64,000 nucleotides of DNA from Symbiopectobacterium purcellii (GTDB taxonomy: Bacteria > Pseudomonadota > Gammaproteobacteria > Enterobacterales > Enterobacteriaceae), in the NCBI RefSeq assembly GCF_019797845.1, contig NZ_CP081864.1:1798001-1862000 (forward strand), given 5' to 3'. The position numbers and the translations under genes were made by a program. Position 1 is the first letter of the stretch, and each line of letters starts with the position of its first letter. Below, piece by piece: positions 1,020 to 8,289 of the stretch. A model generated the notes under the pieces. It was not told the DNA's origin. It made no database searches and saw only the letters and a list, made by a program, of their open reading frames with translations.

Positions 1020-1661
1020 ATGCCAGGGCTAAACGACCTCCTAAACCAGTTAGAACGGGTACGAAAGCAAATCCCGTTTGCTACTGCTCAGGCGCTAACC
1101 AGCGTAGCCAGGCAGATAAAAGACGCACAAACGACAGCCATTAAACGCACGTTCGACAATCCAACCCCGTTCACCGCCAATTCAGTTCGATCACAAGGTG
1201 CCAGAAAAGACACGCTAAAGGCCCGCGTCTTTATCATGGATACCTCAGCGGAATACCTGGAACCGTTTGAAATCGGTGGGCAGCACAAGCTTAACGGCCA
1301 TGCGCTACTGAACCCCAAAAACATTCGCCTCAACAAATACGGCAACCTTGGCAATCGCAAGATGAGCCAGCGCAAAAACAATAATACTTTTGTTGGCGAA
1401 GTGGGCGGTGTCGAGGGGCTATGGCGTCGAAAGAAAACCCGAAAAGGCAAGAAGGCCAAGAAGCGGGCGAAACGATCCCCCAATGGTACGCGCGCCGCAC
1501 GACAGAAACAGCCCGCACCAAAGCTGTTAATCCGGTTTGGTGATGCGCTGCCAGTGCGTCAGCACCTGGGGTATTTTGACCGAGCCAACACCATGGCGGC
1601 GGCGTTGATGCCGTCAGCAATGGCTAGGGCGCTGGATCAGGCTCTGAGGACCGCCAAATGA
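1020..1661 (+). CDS. Phage protein of unknown function, basic, possible morphogenesis factor
   Basis: ATG 1020 is chosen because a G-rich Shine-Dalgarno (GGGGGG) sits 7-12 bases upstream; the frame is open further left but without a ribosome site. The 213-residue product has a helical N-terminus ('LLNQLERVRKQIPFATAQAL'), a central region and a very lysine/arginine-rich stretch around residues 135-165. Its general layout resembles phage virion-morphogenesis or tail-completion proteins, but I do not recognise a family with certainty. It lies just before the packaging site, outside the head gene cluster. Confidence 0.45.
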   Translation: MPGLNDLLNQLERVRKQIPFATAQALTSVARQIKDAQTTAIKRTFDNPTPFTANSVRSQGARKDTLKARVFIMDTSAEYLEPFEIGGQHKLNGHALLNPKNIRLNKYGNLGNRKMSQRKNNNTFVGEVGGVEGLWRRKKTRKGKKAKKRAKRSPNGTRAARQKQPAPKLLIRFGDALPVRQHLGYFDRANTMAAALMPSAMARALDQALRTAK

Positions 1662-1687
1662 CCCGCACCAACCCGGTGCAGGGTTTT

Positions 1688-1760
1688 GGGTCCTTCCTGG
1701 TACTTTTGTAAGGCACGGGCATTGCGAGCCGCGGTGTTTTCCTAGCGACAAATTTTCAAT
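1688..1760 (+). other. Candidate cos site (cosQ-like plus cosN-like)
   Basis: The segment GGGTCCTTCCTGG at 1688-1700 resembles the lambda cosQ motif. It is followed at 1717-1758 by a stretch that aligns by eye with lambda cosN and its downstream flank: GGGC..GCGAGCCGCGG, then a TTTTC run, then AAATTTTC. It sits between late genes and the small terminase gene, the position of cos in lambda, and a binding-site-like repeat array follows it. The comparison is with lambda cos as I remember it. The nick positions and overhang length are not determinable from the sequence alone. Confidence 0.55.
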
Positions 1761-1763
1761 TTG

Positions 1764-1911
1764 TGTCCCATGTCCCACCCTGACGAAAAACGTGCCAGCC
1801 CTTGCCGGTTGCGGGGTGCTGGCGATCTTTACCCTGGGACATTTGGTGTGGGACACAAAAAATGTCCCAGGTAATGTCCCAGCACTGAAAATGTCCCATC
1901 AGGATGTCCCA
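1764..1911 (+). repeat. Array of eight TGTCCCA heptamers, candidate cosB terminase-binding sites
   Basis: Exact TGTCCCA copies on the plus strand start at 1764, 1771, 1863, 1875, 1892 and 1905. Inverted copies (TGGGACA) start at 1835 and 1849. The last copy ends on the A of the TerS start codon. Eight exact 7-mers in 148 bases cannot be chance. The place, between the cos-like nick region and the Nu1-like gene, is that of the lambda R sites bound by the small terminase, although the motif is different. Binding by TerS is an inference. A second possible use is autoregulation of terS, since the copies run into its start codon. Confidence 0.65.
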
Positions 1912-2468
1912 TGACCACAATGACCCAGAGCGCCTACGCGCAACACGCACGCGTCGACCGTAAAACTATTGGCCGCTGGATTAAGTCAGGCAAGTTCATC
2001 GTGATGGATGGTGAGCTGATTGACGTTGAAGCTACCGACGCGGCGCTGGCAAAAAACCGGGATGGCAAAGATCTACGTACGTCCAACGCCAAAAAGAAAA
2101 AAACGGCTGACGTTTCCACCGAACAGCGAATTGAAAATGATGCTCAGGAAATGCTGCTGGTAGAAGGAGCAAGCCTGTCACGGGAAGAAGCCGCCAGGAT
2201 AAAAGAGAACTACCTGGCCATGCTGACCAAATTGGAGTTTGAAAAAGAGAGCGGTCAGTTGATCGATATGGTCAAAGCCGAGGAGGTCCTTTTTATCGCC
2301 TTTCGTCAACAAAGGGATGCATGGCTCAACTGGCCTTCACGAGTCGCGCCGCTGATGGCCGCTGATCTGGATGTGCCAGCGGATAAAATGACAGAGGTGT
2401 TGATCGAACATGTCCACAAACACATTTCTGTCCTCGGAGAACCCGAGTTCAACCCTGGAGAAGATTGA
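1911..2468 (+). CDS. Terminase small subunit, Nu1-like
   Basis: A 185-residue protein with an N-terminal winged helix-turn-helix ('YAQHARVDRKTIGRWIKSGK'), then a charged linker around residues 45-80 and a helical C-terminal half with 'EEVLFIAFRQQRDAWLNWPSR', as in Nu1-type subunits that carry a TerL-interacting C-terminus. It would bind the cos region and recruit the large subunit for genome cutting and packaging. The start codon touches the last TGTCCCA repeat. The gene overlaps terL by 59 bases, as nu1 and A lie close together in lambda. Confidence 0.75.
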   Translation: MTTMTQSAYAQHARVDRKTIGRWIKSGKFIVMDGELIDVEATDAALAKNRDGKDLRTSNAKKKKTADVSTEQRIENDAQEMLLVEGASLSREEAARIKENYLAMLTKLEFEKESGQLIDMVKAEEVLFIAFRQQRDAWLNWPSRVAPLMAADLDVPADKMTEVLIEHVHKHISVLGEPEFNPGED

Positions 2469-4533
2469 TCGCCTTTATTTAAGTGTTCGCAAAGCCTGGA
2501 CACCGCCGCCTCGCATCAGTGTGCCCGAATGGGCAGATCGTTACCGTAAACTGGCACGTGAAGCCGGTAGCACATCAGGCAATTGGGAAACCGAGACGGT
2601 TGAAATAGCCCGTGGCCCTATGCTTGCCGCTACCGAGTCAGGTGTTCATGTGATTACGGTGATGTGCTGTACCCAGTTGATGAAAACCGCGTTGTTAGAA
2701 AACCTGTTTGGCTATTTCGCGCATCTTGATCCGTGCCCTATTTTGTTGCTGCAACCGAAAGAAGAGGCGGCAGAACAATTCTCAAAAGAGCGCATCAGCC
2801 CGCTGGTGCGTGTAACGCCGGTGCTGCGTAAAATCATTGGTGATTCGAAACAGAAAACGTCAAAAGAAACCATACTGTATAAAGCCTTTACCGGTGGTTT
2901 TCTGGCGCTGGCCGGGGCCGGTAGCCCTGATAACCTGGCGCGCCGTCCGATCCGCGTTCTGCTGGCGGACGAAATCGATAAATACCCGAAAACCCGCGAA
3001 GGGGACCCGATTACCCTGGCAGAGGAGCGTACCGCAACCTTTGGCCTGAATTGGTTATCGGTGCGTGCCTGCTCGCCCACGGTGGAAGATGAAAGCCGTA
3101 TCGCAGACAGTTACGCAGAGTCCGATCAACGTCGGGCATCGGTGGTCTGCCCGCATTGTGGTCACCGCCAATTTCTGGATTTCTTCAAACACGTCCAGTG
3201 GCCGAAAGACGGTGATCGGCACATCAGCAAATCCGCGATGATTTATTGCGAATGCTGCGGCGCTGGATGGTCAGAGGGTGAGCGACTGCGTGCGCTGCGT
3301 ACCCTACGCTGGCATCAAACCAAGCCCTTCGAATGCTGCGGTGAGAGGCATGCACCGCTGATGGAATATGAACAGCAATGGCGCGCGGGTGGCGCGGATG
3401 CAGTAGAAAAGGTCTGGCACTGGTCCGAATCTGATCGACATGCCGTTTACCGTGCCTGCTGCCCGGATTGTGGCCGGGAAGCGCTCGACAATCATCACGC
3501 CGGATTTCAGGCATCCAAGCTTTTCAGCCCCTGGCAGAAGGACAAACCGTCCGATATCGCAGAGAAATACCTACGTGCCAAAGGGGACCCCGACAAGGAA
3601 CTGGCATGGTGGAATACTCAGATGGGCTTACCGCATCGGCCTAACCACGGCAAGCAGTTACCGGTAGATATTCTGCTGGCACGCCGTGAAGTTTTCGCGG
3701 CCCCAGTTGCTGACGCTGTGGCGGTACTGACTGCCGGTATTGATACCCAGGATGATCGCTTCGAGATTGAAGTGATTGGCTGGGGCAGAAACGAAGAGTC
3801 CTGGTCGGTGGCGCATGATGTTATTTACGGCGATCTGGAAACTGACGAACCTTGGAAACGCCTTGATGCCTATTTGAAACAGGTCTGGCGCCGTGGGGAT
3901 GGGCGGGGGCTCACCATCATGGCCGCCTGCCATGACTCCGGCGGGCATCATACGCAGAAAGTGTACGAATTTGCCAAAGAGCGCCTTGGCCGCCGCATAT
4001 GGGCGATCAAGGGGGAATCCGCACCAGGCGGCAAGCGTAACCCAGTCTGGCCGACCAAGCGCCCCTCATCGAAAAGTAAGGCGCAATTCAGGCCGATCAT
4101 TATCGGTGTCAATGCCGCGAAAGACGTGATTCGTGGCAGATTGCATCTCGAACCACCTAAACAACAGGAAGCCGCACCGGGCTATATGCATTTCCCTGAT
4201 GATCGGGACGTGGGGTATTTCAATCAACTGCTGGCTGAACGTCTGGTCTATAAAGTGGTTGCTGGTCAGCGTTTCAGTGTCTGGGAGGCTATCGCCGGGC
4301 GCGCTAACGAAGCGTTGGACTGCCGGGTGTATGGCTACGCCGCGCTCTGTGGGTTGATGCATATCGGGTTAAAACTGAATGTTCGCGCCGCGAATCTTGA
4401 GGCCAACCCCGACAAGTTGTTACCCCCCGCCGCGCAACCAGAAGAAAAAGTGAATTACGAGTTACCCGGCGCCGTTGTCGAAGAGCCAGCGCCGCCGCCG
4501 CGTAAGCGTCTGTCAAAACTCCTACCGCAATAA
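2410..4533 (+). CDS. Terminase large subunit, lambda gpA family
   Basis: The 707-residue length is usual for the gpA family (lambda gpA 641). The N-terminus has 'SVPEWADRYRKLAREAGSTSGNWET', a hallmark of this family. The ATPase part includes 'FLALAGAGSPDNLARRPIRV', followed by the acidic 'LLADEID' Walker B-like segment near residue 190. Two CxxC pairs follow ('CPHCGHRQ' and 'CECCGAGW'), then a further cysteine-rich region, and a nuclease part beginning 'AGIDTQDDRFEIEVIGWG' near residue 440. It cuts concatemers at cos and pumps DNA into the prohead. The start lies inside terS; only the overlapping arrangement gives the full N-terminal motif. Confidence 0.9.
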   Translation: MSTNTFLSSENPSSTLEKIDRLYLSVRKAWTPPPRISVPEWADRYRKLAREAGSTSGNWETETVEIARGPMLAATESGVHVITVMCCTQLMKTALLENLFGYFAHLDPCPILLLQPKEEAAEQFSKERISPLVRVTPVLRKIIGDSKQKTSKETILYKAFTGGFLALAGAGSPDNLARRPIRVLLADEIDKYPKTREGDPITLAEERTATFGLNWLSVRACSPTVEDESRIADSYAESDQRRASVVCPHCGHRQFLDFFKHVQWPKDGDRHISKSAMIYCECCGAGWSEGERLRALRTLRWHQTKPFECCGERHAPLMEYEQQWRAGGADAVEKVWHWSESDRHAVYRACCPDCGREALDNHHAGFQASKLFSPWQKDKPSDIAEKYLRAKGDPDKELAWWNTQMGLPHRPNHGKQLPVDILLARREVFAAPVADAVAVLTAGIDTQDDRFEIEVIGWGRNEESWSVAHDVIYGDLETDEPWKRLDAYLKQVWRRGDGRGLTIMAACHDSGGHHTQKVYEFAKERLGRRIWAIKGESAPGGKRNPVWPTKRPSSKSKAQFRPIIIGVNAAKDVIRGRLHLEPPKQQEAAPGYMHFPDDRDVGYFNQLLAERLVYKVVAGQRFSVWEAIAGRANEALDCRVYGYAALCGLMHIGLKLNVRAANLEANPDKLLPPAAQPEEKVNYELPGAVVEEPAPPPRKRLSKLLPQ

Positions 4534-4541
4534 GGATCACC

Positions 4542-4805
4542 ATGTTTAACCGAAACACCAGTTTGCTGGCTGGCGCGATGACGGATGACCAATTAAGAGA
4601 TGCACTCACCAAGGCCCAGCAGGCTTACATTGATTTAGCGACCGGAACCCACGGTGTTTCGTTTTCCTACGGTATGGGGGACGGGACGCGCTCTGTGTCT
4701 TACCAACAGAGCACCTTGGCCGATTTGCTGGCATTGATTCAACTGTTGCAGGCGCAACTGGGGATTGTGGCGCGGCCAAGGCGACCAGCGAGGTTTCGAT
4801 TCTGA
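4542..4805 (+). CDS. Head-to-tail joining protein, gpW family
   Basis: An 87-residue protein close in size to lambda gpW (68 residues), which fills the portal exit after packaging and prepares the head for tail attachment. The segment 'QLRDALTKAQQAYIDLATG' followed by 'VSYQQSTLADLLALIQLLQAQL' is the typical two-helix gpW pattern with a beta hairpin between. It sits between terL and the portal gene, the lambda order A-W-B. Its stop codon TGA overlaps the portal ATG in ATGA, so the two are translationally coupled. Confidence 0.85.
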   Translation: MFNRNTSLLAGAMTDDQLRDALTKAQQAYIDLATGTHGVSFSYGMGDGTRSVSYQQSTLADLLALIQLLQAQLGIVARPRRPARFRF

Positions 4806-6442
4806 TGAATAAAGTACACATTCTCGGGCCGGATGGTAGCCCTTTGCGTCCAGCGCGCCCCAGTATGCTGACCGGTGGTAGCCGTGTTCCTTATGATGCT
4901 GCCGACTCCTTCAGCGATCAATTGGCGAACTGGCAACCGGCATTGTGGTCGCCGGACAATGAGATCAATATTTATCGCGACCGCATTGTATCCCGTGCAC
5001 GTGATCTGGTGCGTAACGATGGCTGGGCCAACGGTGCGGTCACACGATTGTTAGATAATGCGGTCGGGGCCAATTTTCGCCCGATCATGAAGCCTGATTA
5101 CCGTGTGCTCAAAATGATCACCGGCAATAAAAAATTTGATTCCACCTGGGCTGAGGAATACGGCAAAGCGTTGGAGGCACACTGGCGCACCTGGGCTTAT
5201 GACACCGGGCGTTACTGCGATGTGGAACGCAAGCTGACCGTACCACAAATGCTACGCCTGGGTTTTCGCCACAAATTGATTGATGGTGACGCACTGGCGG
5301 TACTTCAGTACCGACTCGATAGGTTGGGGCGGGGTAAGGGGCGCTACGCCACCACGGTGCAAATTGTCGATCCTGACCGGCTCAGCAACCCGCAGCAAAA
5401 TTTTGATATGCCTAATATCCGTGGTGGTGTCGAAATAGACGACGATGGCGCGCCGGTGGCCTATCACATTCGCGAAGCGCATATCGGCGACTGGTGGAGC
5501 GGCAAGAAAACCATGACCTGGAAGCGTATAGCGCGCGAAACCGGTTGGGGCCGTCCGCATGTGGTGCATGACTTTGACCATGAGCGCGGGGCGCAACATC
5601 GGGGTAATGGAATACTGACGCCGGTGATACAGCGCCTGAAAATGTTGGTCAAGTATGATCAAAGCGAGCTGGAGGCGGCGATCCTCAATGCCATCTTTGC
5701 CGCCTATATCGAATCCCCCTATGACGCGGAAATGGTCCAGGCCGCCATGGGGGAAAGCGTTGACGATTCCATCCTTGGCGCTTATCAAGATGGCCGTATT
5801 GAATTTCACAAAGATCGCCGCCTGACGCTGCAAAATGGCGCACGGATGCCCATTCTTTATCCGGGCGAAAAAATCACCACGGTGAATGCCGCTCGACCTT
5901 ACAGTAATTTTGAGGTGTTTGAATCGGCGGTATTACGTAATTTCTCTTCCGGTACCGGCCTTTCACCGCAACAGGTGACACAGGATTGGTCTGATGTGAA
6001 CTACAGTTCGGCGCGATCTTCCTTACTGGAAGCCTGGAAAACGCTGACACGGCGCCGGGATGACTTCTCCATTGGATTTGCTCAGCCGATCCTCACCGCG
6101 TTTGCCGAAGAGGTTCACGACAACGAGGATTTGCCGCTGCCCGCGGGCGCACCGGATTTTGTCGATGCGCGTGCAGCCTATTCTCGTGCGCGTTGGATGG
6201 GGCCGGGACGAGGTTGGGTTGACCCAGTGGCAGAGAAGAAAGGGGCAATTCTTGGCCTGGATGCAGGGCTCTCCACCCTCGAAATTGAGGTGGGGGAAAA
6301 CGTCGGCGAAGACTGGGAAGAGGTGCTGGACCAGCGTCAGCGGGAAATTGAGTCTTGTGTTAAGCGGGGCCTCCCTTTACCCAGTTGGGCGCAGGCCGAC
6401 CAGTTCGCCAGCCAAACGATTACTGATCCGGAGGAAAAGTGA
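4805..6442 (+). CDS. Portal protein, lambda gpB family
   Basis: A 545-residue protein of normal length for lambda-type portals (gpB 533). It includes the N-terminal 'ARDLVRNDGWANGAVTRLLD' and 'ANFRPIMKPDYR' segments and the central 'YSSARSSLLEAW' motif near residue 400, all typical of the family. Twelve copies form the ring through which DNA enters and leaves the head. Start ATG overlaps the gpW stop; the end overlaps the GTG start of the protease gene by four bases, so the head genes form one tightly coupled operon. Confidence 0.9.
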   Translation: MNKVHILGPDGSPLRPARPSMLTGGSRVPYDAADSFSDQLANWQPALWSPDNEINIYRDRIVSRARDLVRNDGWANGAVTRLLDNAVGANFRPIMKPDYRVLKMITGNKKFDSTWAEEYGKALEAHWRTWAYDTGRYCDVERKLTVPQMLRLGFRHKLIDGDALAVLQYRLDRLGRGKGRYATTVQIVDPDRLSNPQQNFDMPNIRGGVEIDDDGAPVAYHIREAHIGDWWSGKKTMTWKRIARETGWGRPHVVHDFDHERGAQHRGNGILTPVIQRLKMLVKYDQSELEAAILNAIFAAYIESPYDAEMVQAAMGESVDDSILGAYQDGRIEFHKDRRLTLQNGARMPILYPGEKITTVNAARPYSNFEVFESAVLRNFSSGTGLSPQQVTQDWSDVNYSSARSSLLEAWKTLTRRRDDFSIGFAQPILTAFAEEVHDNEDLPLPAGAPDFVDARAAYSRARWMGPGRGWVDPVAEKKGAILGLDAGLSTLEIEVGENVGEDWEEVLDQRQREIESCVKRGLPLPSWAQADQFASQTITDPEEK

Positions 6443-7308
6443 ATTTACCCCACCTTGCGCAGCGGATGTTCAATACACCGCTGGCCATTCATCCCAACAA
6501 AGCCGAAGTCATGATGGCGGCGGTTATGGACCGATTCGGCATTTCCAAAATTGAAGCCGCGCTGGCGATGGAGGATGACGACTACTACGGCTATGACGAC
6601 AACCGTGAACGCAATACGCGACGTGACCCAGGCTACGACAACGTAGCGGGGGTGGCAGTCATTCCTATCTGCGGCACGCTGGTTCAAAAGTTGGGCAGCC
6701 TGCGACCCTATAGCGGCATGACTGGCTATGACGGCATTCGTCAATCCTTTCTTACTGCGATGCATGATCCTGATGTTAGCGGCGTTTGCCTGGATATCGA
6801 CTCACCCGGTGGCGAGGTCGCTGGCTGTTTTGATTTGGTGGATGAAATTTATCATGCCAGGGGTGATAAGCCGATCTATTCGATTCTGTCGGAAAACGCC
6901 TATTCGGCGGCCTATGCCATCGCCAGCGCGGCCGACAAGATTTACGTACCGCGCACCGGGGGCGTTGGCTCGATCGGCGTTATCACCATGCACTTGGATT
7001 GGACGCAGCGTATCAAGGACGACGGGCTGAAAGTCACCATTGTGACTTACGGAAAACGCAAGGCAGAGGGCTCGCCCTATCGCGAACTGTCTGCTGAAGC
7101 GTTGGCCGCTATCGAGAGTGATATCAACACCATGGGGGAACTGTTTGTTAACACCGTGGCCCGTAATCGCGGCATTAGCGCAAACATTATCGAAAATACG
7201 CAAGCAGCCTGTTTTATGGCTGCGGGTGGTGTAGAGCTTGGACTGGCTGACGGAGTGATGACCCCAGATGCTGCGTTCAGAAAGTTACTTTCATTAACAG
7301 GAGCCTGA
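6439..7308 (+). CDS. Head maturation protease, S49 (SppA-like) family
   Basis: A 289-residue protein starting at GTG 6439, overlapping the portal stop. It carries the S49 core: 'GVCLDIDSPGGEVAGC', then 'SAAYAIASAADKIYVPRTGGVGSIGVI' with the probable nucleophile Ser in 'NAYSAAYA', and 'YGKRKAEGSPYRELS', which supplies the probable general-base Lys. In lambda the equivalent is the N-terminal part of gpC. It would process the scaffold and portal during prohead assembly. The scaffold-like domain here is encoded by the separate following gene, which begins two bases after the stop codon. Confidence 0.85.
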   Translation: MNLPHLAQRMFNTPLAIHPNKAEVMMAAVMDRFGISKIEAALAMEDDDYYGYDDNRERNTRRDPGYDNVAGVAVIPICGTLVQKLGSLRPYSGMTGYDGIRQSFLTAMHDPDVSGVCLDIDSPGGEVAGCFDLVDEIYHARGDKPIYSILSENAYSAAYAIASAADKIYVPRTGGVGSIGVITMHLDWTQRIKDDGLKVTIVTYGKRKAEGSPYRELSAEALAAIESDINTMGELFVNTVARNRGISANIIENTQAACFMAAGGVELGLADGVMTPDAAFRKLLSLTGA

Positions 7309-7309
7309 T

Positions 7310-7885
7310 ATGGCTAAGACCAAACCCTTTAGTTTTGCTCACCTTTTCGGTGGTGGCGCGAAAGCCGCTGAAGAGGATGAAGATAAAAAATCGCAAAAAG
7401 CCAAAAAGGCCAAAGGTCGCGCGGAAGAAGACGATCGCGACGAGGATGACACTGGCGCCGAAGAAGATGAACACGATGATCCTGACGCAGAAGACGACGA
7501 TCCGGATGCTGAGGATGACGACAACGACACGGATGCCGAAGACGATGACGGTGATGACCGTAAAGACGACAAGGCAAGCCGCCAGGCTCGACTGGGTGAA
7601 CGCCGTCGTTGTGCGCGCATCTTTGGCAGCAAATACGCTGCAGGTAATATTTCCTTGGCGGCATCATTGGCCTTTAACACCGGTATGAGTTCAACTGCGG
7701 CGATTGATGTGTTGAAAGGCAACCGGCAACAGCAACTACAAGGCTCTCGCCGTCGCTCCTTGGATGACCGCATGCAGTCCAGTGAACAGGTACGCCTGGG
7801 GCAGGATGGCACCAAACCAACCGGTAAATCAGCGCTGGTGCAAACCATGACCAGTCTCTACAACTCCACCAAGGGAGATAAATAA
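7310..7885 (+). CDS. Probable head scaffolding protein with acidic repeat region
   Basis: A 191-residue protein placed directly after the protease and before gpD, the position of the scaffold (lambda Nu3). Residues about 20-85 are extremely acidic, with tandem 'DPDAEDDD'-type units, preceded by a lysine/alanine stretch. The C-terminal half is basic and helical ('RQARLGERRRCARIFGSKYA'), as expected for a capsid-binding end. Scaffold proteins are internal, charged and removed by the protease at maturation. Function is inferred from position and composition; sequence families of scaffolds are poorly conserved. The stop overlaps the gpD start. Confidence 0.6.
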   Translation: MAKTKPFSFAHLFGGGAKAAEEDEDKKSQKAKKAKGRAEEDDRDEDDTGAEEDEHDDPDAEDDDPDAEDDDNDTDAEDDDGDDRKDDKASRQARLGERRRCARIFGSKYAAGNISLAASLAFNTGMSSTAAIDVLKGNRQQQLQGSRRRSLDDRMQSSEQVRLGQDGTKPTGKSALVQTMTSLYNSTKGDK

Positions 7886-8289
7886 TGGATCAGTTTGGTC
7901 AAAATCCATTTTCGCCGGGCATGCGCAGTTCGCTATTTGTTCCCGATCAGCTTATTGCCGGTCCGTTACAACTGATCACAGACACGGTGACAGTAACTGG
8001 TGGCGCGTTTAAGCGTGGTACCGTGCTCGGTATGGTCACAGAAAGCGGGAAATACACGGCATGCGTCAAGACGGCTACTGATGGCAGTGAAACGCCAGTG
8101 GCGATCTTGGTAGATAATGTTGATGCCTCCACCACTGATCAAGCTGGAGGTGTGTATCTGATGGGTGAGTTTAACCAAAATCGTATCATCACCGATGATT
8201 CCTGGACACTCGCGAGCATGAAAAGCGCGCTGCGTCCGTTGGCTATTTTCCTGAAAGACAGCATTCAAGCCCCAGTATCTGCTTCCTGA
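7885..8289 (+). CDS. Head decoration protein, lambda gpD-like
   Basis: A 134-residue protein (lambda gpD 110) with 'GAFKRGTVLGMVTESGKY' and 'VAILVDNVDASTTDQAGGVYLMGEFN', the standard gpD-type beta-rich pattern. Trimers of gpD clip onto the expanded head lattice and hold it together once DNA fills it. It begins at the scaffold stop codon and lies directly before the major capsid gene, as in lambda. Confidence 0.85.
   Translation: MDQFGQNPFSPGMRSSLFVPDQLIAGPLQLITDTVTVTGGAFKRGTVLGMVTESGKYTACVKTATDGSETPVAILVDNVDASTTDQAGGVYLMGEFNQNRIITDDSWTLASMKSALRPLAIFLKDSIQAPVSAS

Follow-up and report, generated by a model that had tools for sequence, protein, structure and literature searches.

The 64,000-nucleotide stretch of Symbiopectobacterium purcellii analysed here (NZ_CP081864.1, positions 1,798,001 to 1,862,000; hereafter the window) carries a prophage in which eight exact copies of the heptamer TGTCCCA lie directly before terS, the gene for the small terminase subunit (TerS). 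We consider, with a probability of roughly 0.88, that this array is the cosB, or TerS-binding segment, of a lambda-type cohesive-end site (cos), in a multi-copy modular variant. An array of the same heptamer was found before terS in 79/79 relatives; the virion ends of Serratia phage BZS1 lie at the same cosN (PMC7556043); and the repeated word changes with the DNA-binding half of TerS. A sequence-only reading of the window had proposed a cosB of unfamiliar specificity, and these observations support it.

The array and the small terminase subunit

TGTCCCA occurs 12 times as an exact match on the two strands of the window. Eight of these copies are found within 148 bp (1764–1911), an interval in which about 0.02 would be expected from shuffled sequences (mean of 7.77 copies per 64 kb). 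Six of the eight are direct and two inverted, and they are located between a segment resembling cosQ and cosN and the start of terS. The cosQ-like sequence GGGTCCTTCC is at 1688–1697 on the forward strand, followed after an 18-base gap by CGGGCATTGCG; it is invariant in 50 distinct segments of the TGTCCCA class, the motif itself being part of the pattern by which they were selected. Positions 1719–1730 (forward strand) are the counterpart of the 12-nt overhang GCATTGCGCGCC of BZS1 virions, with 11/12 positions identical (A for C at 1727), and the complete cosQ/cosN pattern has a single occurrence in the host genome.

The heptamers form three groups, which we call the first, middle and distal stations. 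Heptamers 1 (1764–1770, beginning 46 bp from the left cohesive end) and 2 (1771–1777) are direct and in tandem, at a position like that of lambda R3. Heptamers 3 (1835–1841) and 4 (1849–1855) are inverted, and the station they form is placed like R2. Heptamers 5 (1863–1869), 6 (1875–1881), 7 (1892–1898) and 8 (1905–1911) are again direct, spaced by 12, 17 and 13 bases, and begin at an R1-like position. The final A of heptamer 8 is the first base of the terS ATG at 1911. Number, orientation, spacing and contact with the start codon were as first described, on a recount and by coordinates, and the cosQ/cosN-like segment said to precede the array was borne out by its match to the BZS1 overhang.

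The terS gene (1911–2468, forward strand) specifies a 185-amino acid protein which matches phrog_57, 'terminase small subunit' (E 1.4e-29). This is also the family matched best by lambda Nu1 (E 1.3e-76), in agreement with the Nu1-like small terminase that had been suggested. An AlphaFold2 model (mean predicted local distance difference test score 72, predicted template modelling score 0.30) has a predicted winged helix-turn-helix (HTH) at residues 1–50, a low-confidence linker at 52–68 and a helical C-terminal part. A Foldseek search with the model returned the DNA-binding domains of terminase small subunits 7lwr (probability 0.98, E 0.31) and 7lw0 (0.96, E 0.59). Profile comparison with Nu1 aligned the HTH (E 7e-4, at a probability of only 26%), and neither the window TerS nor alignment A1 found a terminase when searched against PDB sequences.

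Conservation among TerS relatives

Viral contigs were scanned with the TerS protein, and the best 80 of 202 relatives (68–77% identical) were kept. One of them, L085, begins at terS and was left out of the upstream counts. All 79 others possess at least five exact heptamers in the 175 bp 5' of terS, and 76 of the 79 also have cosQ-cosN within 260 bp of the gene. The prediction that close TerS homologues carry TGTCCCA arrays before terS, which had been set beforehand as a test able to refute the proposal, thus held throughout. The relatives collapse to 44 distinct upstream stretches with 5–9 copies each. In 50 distinct cos-to-terS segments the major-allele frequency is 0.879 for heptamer columns against 0.595 for the spacers within the array (Mann-Whitney p 2e-15, columns treated as independent). 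One locus, L075, has unrelated DNA in place of cosQ/cosN and the first station, and keeps the middle and distal heptamers.

Window positions 1688–1913 had no DNA match among 50,697 phage records, and tblastn with TerS against these records gave 18 matches, every one below 60% identity. Of genomes related to the host, 5/197 had the TerS protein and 4/295 had cosQ-cosN, the host's own included in both counts. No description of such arrays was recognised in a literature search conducted mostly outside subscription journals.

Other words on the same cosQ/cosN frame

Scans with the cosQ-cosN pattern yielded at least 120 viral stretches and 53 in a collection of species genomes. With seven Escherichia coli loci, BZS1, phiNP and the window they make up at least 183 loci, at least 137 of them distinct. 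The commonest 6-mer in 600 bp beat all 60 shuffles in 108 of the 137 distinct loci; this test has little power in GC-rich loci, whose words were found by position. The words standing at the fixed position are TGTCCCA (52 loci), GGTAACA (53), CGTTACAC (9), TTCACACT (3), TTGACACT (3), GTCCGCA (3), GTTCGCA (2), GGTTAAC, elsewhere given as GTTAACA (1), and TTTACACT (1), with none assigned in 10. Several are single-base neighbours, namely TT(C/G/T)ACACT, GTTCGCA/GTCCGCA and GGTAACA/GTTAACA, mostly beside related recognition helices. Two of the loci, L224 and L234, probably match the pattern by chance.

The repeats are not confined to the DNA before terS. GGTAACA copies of the BZS1-like loci run on inside the gene, where they encode a Gly-Asn-rich linker between the two halves of TerS, while the GTTCGCA loci and L151, L191 and L253 have most of their copies inside terS. 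Both GTTCGCA and GTCCGCA loci have copies at bp 46–47 as well as within the gene.

Distance from the cohesive ends

BZS1 and the window have their cosQ and cosN in common, and the left end of BZS1 is annotated (cosL feature). Its 5' cohesive ends, GCATTGCGCGCC, were predicted by PhageTerm from phage reads and checked by PCR across the lysogen cos and comparison with the DNA ends of phage particles (PMC7556043). The expectation that virion ends map to this cosN is therefore upheld for a relative, those of the window prophage being placed by sequence. Counted from the BZS1 left cohesive end, the first exact copy within bp 36–60 starts at bp 46–49 in 124 of the 127 word-assigned loci, which represent all nine words. 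R3 occupies bp 50–65 in lambda (PMC9026076) and bp 48–59 in N15 (PMC4669245), and the lambda core CGTTTCC is found at 53 (+), 114 (-) and 155 (+). Since the BZS1 virion ends are at this cosN, the first copies (bp 46–59) fall at the place of lambda R3.

The features of a lambda-type site, cosQ and cosN with a 12-bp nick stagger, are present by sequence and by the ends of BZS1 (PMC7556043). A direct-inverted-direct order at lambda-like distances is found in the window and in the TGTCCCA class, in which ++--++++ is the commonest arrangement (19/52). The GGTAACA class has this order in 5/53 loci, and 14/53 begin ++--. For integration host factor (IHF), whose site in a lambda-type cos is located between R3 and R2, the exact consensus WATCAANNNNTTR occurs in 0/47 and 0/51 distinct segments, a scan on which the lambda control also fails, and a match at 8 of 9 positions, the best that lambda itself reaches, occurs in 3/47 and 2/51. 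N15 is described as having no IHF site (PMC9026076).

Pairing of word and TerS N-terminus

The TerS N-terminus was typed for each locus by a search blind to the word. Word and N-terminal type agree in 123/123 loci typed on both sides; the other 14 of the 137 were typed on neither side (8) or on one only (6). Because the array and the TerS N-terminus adjoin, such agreement says little by itself, and pairs of loci in which one word has been exchanged for another are more telling. E. coli HS (L097, TGTCCCA) and 20KM2222 (L093, GGTAACA) agree at 97% in the bin that covers cosN, at 18–57% through the array and the N-terminal half of TerS, and at 63–95% within its C-terminal half. Beyond TerS they are 95–100% alike per 60-base bin from terL into the portal gene, except for one bin at 85%, and their gpW proteins have an identical accession. 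The same pattern is seen between L125 and L092, whose TerL DNA is 97.6% alike, and between L099 (TGTCCCA) and L161 or L194 (both GGTAACA; TerL DNA 97.1% and 96.3% alike), where the swap has taken place in another TerS C-terminal type. Among 113 with a TerL-region match of at least 600 bp, the latter three (L125/L092, L099/L161 and L099/L194) are the only cross-word pairs at 95% or more.

Both C-terminal types occur with both of the common words. Among 119 TerS proteins the combinations are TGTCCCA-C1 (40), TGTCCCA-C2 (9), GGTAACA-C1 (15) and GGTAACA-C2 (31), the remaining 24 being short or of other types. These C-types were assigned by a motif in its widened version, single-linkage clustering of the C-termini having given no useful split. 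The comparisons support the view that the word changes with the DNA-binding half of TerS and not with cosN or TerL.

Arrays in satellite-like islands

Two islands of E. coli, in strains EC12 (L095/L360) and numer 3 (L356), are associated with different tRNA genes and have integrases 24.6% alike over 142 residues; the stretches they have in common are mostly 93–96% alike. No capsid gene was present in the annotation of either island and no TerL match was obtained by tblastn. Each possesses two cos sites. The first (at 6694 in L095 and 12001 in L356) contains TTTACACT and precedes two TerS-like genes, tested against PHROG 57 in L095 and having the same accessions in numer 3. In L095 these are adjacent (7000–7410 and 7410–7943); nearly all of PHROG 57 is matched by one of them, and only its C-terminal part by the other. 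The second cos, approximately 5 kb on (11978 and 16917, respectively), has nine TGTCCC, seven of them exact TGTCCCA, and no TerS-like N-terminus was detected in the 2.5 kb after it. The second sites of the two islands are 99.7% alike and so constitute one observation rather than two; they are 81.8% alike to the cos of L099. This last is a prophage in the same strain numer 3, with a TGTCCCA cos, TerS and TerL, and is a possible helper of the island. Two cos sites have also been described in EcCICFT073 (PMC6739421).

In the proteins of the TTCACACT and TTGACACT loci the N-terminus is TerS-like, and the match to PHROG 57 does not extend to the C-terminus. A downstream TerL was not found in L094, L226, L215, L241 or L357. 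In L094, L226, L241 and L357 the genes directly after cos are predicted to specify TerS-like HTH proteins. The L094 protein, the only one tested, gave no PDB sequence match at E 0.1, RppC (6hlk) included, and its N-terminal part matches phrog_57. L215 may be a damaged prophage, given an apparent capsid-gene fragment recognised by eye. Between its TTGACACT cos and this fragment, at the place expected for terL (1446–3461 from its cosQ), is a gene for a 671-amino acid ATPase-like protein, perhaps of the OLD type.

Interpretation

On the cosB reading, TGTCCCA would be bound by the winged-HTH half of TerS, and the tandem copies at bp 46–59 would anchor the protein at a constant distance from cosN, in the place that R3 takes in lambda. 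The inverted copies at bp 117–137 and the direct copies at bp 145–193 stand at about the places of R2 and R1. That TerS binds the array, what each station does and that the words exclude one another are inferences. The common frame would comprise cosQ, cosN, TerL and the C-terminal half of TerS, while word and DNA-binding half would form a cassette exchanged by recombination, giving rise to lineages with different packaging specificities.

Several observations weigh against this interpretation. Much of the 123/123 agreement is common descent, broken only by the swaps, and the seeds for N-terminal typing were drawn from the same classes. L258 comes near to being a counterexample, in that it has two GTCCGCA copies and a TerS N-terminus which scores best with the related GTTCGCA seed. 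As to position, the first station of the TGTCCCA loci L099 and L162 is occupied by a copy with one mismatch, and their first exact copy starts at bp 56. An exact copy is missing from this place in L215, and L095, L230, L247 and L266 have an additional copy before bp 36. The commonest pattern of the GGTAACA class is only +++ before bp 210 (28/53), so that a middle and a distal station 5' of terS are not the rule. The window TerS matched no Pfam family, including Phage_Nu1 (PF07471), which lambda Nu1 does match. Lastly, the Foldseek E-values for 7lwr and 7lw0 exceed 0.1; nothing was found at E 0.001, and BldC and MarR-like regulators appear at similar rank.

The array might be mainly an operator, at which TerS bound to the copies by its own start codon represses terS, packaging being secondary. 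The last copy does overlap the ATG in the window, and 37 of 51 loci of the TGTCCCA class have TGTCCCATG, in which the last copy contacts the start codon, where TerS begins. However, the exact contact is missing in the other 14, and copies also lie inside terS in the GGTAACA, GTTCGCA and GTCCGCA loci, which argues against a pure operator. In addition, the two islands keep their nine TGTCCC (seven exact TGTCCCA) at a site where terS was not found, and a scan of 1500–2600 revealed no sigma-70-like promoter. An operator would moreover leave the fixed distance to cosN unexplained, and we regard this explanation as improbable. Autorepression of terS at the last copy, which the sequence-only reading had suggested as a possible additional effect, is neither favoured nor disfavoured by these observations, and a cosB function accounts for the array without it.

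It is more improbable still that the co-variation of word and TerS is mere linkage, an inert repeat travelling with the gene it adjoins. While the array does adjoin the TerS N-terminus and members of a class are related by descent, heptamers persist where the spacers between them diverge, GTTCGCA and GTCCGCA copies are found both at bp 46–47 and inside terS, and other words stand at the same position, in part with the same ++--++++ order. The heptamers are just as unlikely to be replication iterons, which typically consist of short words directly repeated at high density, or the sites of another regulator lying beside cos by chance, since the word varies with the TerS N-terminus at a fixed distance from cosN and the seven open reading frames (ORFs) searched between 15 and 6442 matched no replication family.

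Returning to the cosB interpretation, we lean, with less confidence than for the array itself, towards a wider view in which one cosQ/cosN/TerL frame carries a lexicon of nine words (TGTCCCA, GGTAACA, CGTTACAC, TTCACACT, TTGACACT, TTTACACT, GTTCGCA, GTCCGCA and GTTAACA). Each would be recognised by the DNA-binding half of a matching TerS or TerS-like protein, this half recombining with the array as a cassette, and satellites would have a first cos in their own word, with TerS-like proteins, and a second in the word of the helper. If so, the single-base neighbour words would allow the TerS-DNA code to be deciphered one base at a time. The packaging specificity of lambda-like phages has so far been derived from few of them, namely lambda, 21 and N15 (PMC4669245). 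With many natural pairs of word and TerS half on one frame, the correspondence between recognition-helix residue and base becomes directly testable, as does the redirection of a helper's terminase by satellites. The fixed distance from cosN also provides a sequence rule for locating cosB in unannotated prophages and islands.

Neighbouring genes

Downstream of terS, and likewise on the forward strand, Pfam searches identified terL (2410–4533; 707 amino acids, with GpA_ATPase and GpA_nuclease domains), a gpW-like head-tail joining protein (4542–4805) and a portal protein of the lambda family (4805–6442). Beyond the portal gene are genes for an S49 peptidase, capsid protein E, a tail sheath and Mu-like baseplate proteins; with the packaging genes, these make the prophage look like a contractile-tail phage with lambda-type packaging. 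An Rfam search of 1400–2400 gave no matches up to E 0.1.

The ORF just 5' of cos (933–1661) matches phrog_1924, minor tail protein. A minor-tail-like gene (p72) 5' of the small terminase gene is a conserved position according to the BZS1 paper (PMC7556043). Further upstream, a shortened ORF (650–955) resembles the N-terminus of another TerS family, phrog_1206, and has its own array of GTACGCA, with copies at 785, 804, 812, 825 and 843. When the best 80 of its 290 viral relatives were compared, GTACGCA or GCGTACC was the commonest 7-mer in 57 of 65 distinct 1-kb stretches. These arrays have 4–9 copies, located within the gene in most stretches inspected; the family is a second one in which the array lies inside the TerS gene.

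Comparison with known systems

As in lambda, the order is cosQ-cosN-cosB-terS-terL, the relative BZS1 has 12-nt 5' ends, and direct, inverted and direct stations lie at distances similar to those of R3, R2 and R1. The proteins also resemble gpNu1 and gpA, TerS, with the winged HTH predicted at its N-terminus, belonging to PHROG 57 and TerL having GpA domains. The differences lie in the word, TGTCCCA, with 5–9 short copies in place of three 16-bp R sites, in the cohesive-end sequence, and in the contractile-tail phage, with its sheath and Mu-like baseplate, to which the site belongs. No clear IHF site is seen here, by a scan on which lambda itself fails the exact consensus. A dense array of a short word also serves as the packaging signal of P1, whose pac site consists of repeated hexamers within pacA; P1 packages by the headful and its terminase is unrelated.

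Copies inside terS recall N15, which has an extra inverted site within its terS gene (PMC4669245). In contrast to the specificity groups of lambda, 21 and N15-Monarch (PMC4669245), nine words, single-base neighbours included, here occur on one cosQ/cosN frame. The closest parallel to the islands is provided by the phage-inducible chromosomal islands (PICI) with their cos and Rpp, in which a satellite has the cosQ/cosN of its helper and another cosB (PMC6739421, PMC9026076). For the cos of PICI-A, PMC9026076 reports no repeated R sequences. The satellite-like islands described here differ from PICI-A in carrying dense arrays, in encoding TerS-like proteins, and in possessing a second cos in the word of the putative helper.
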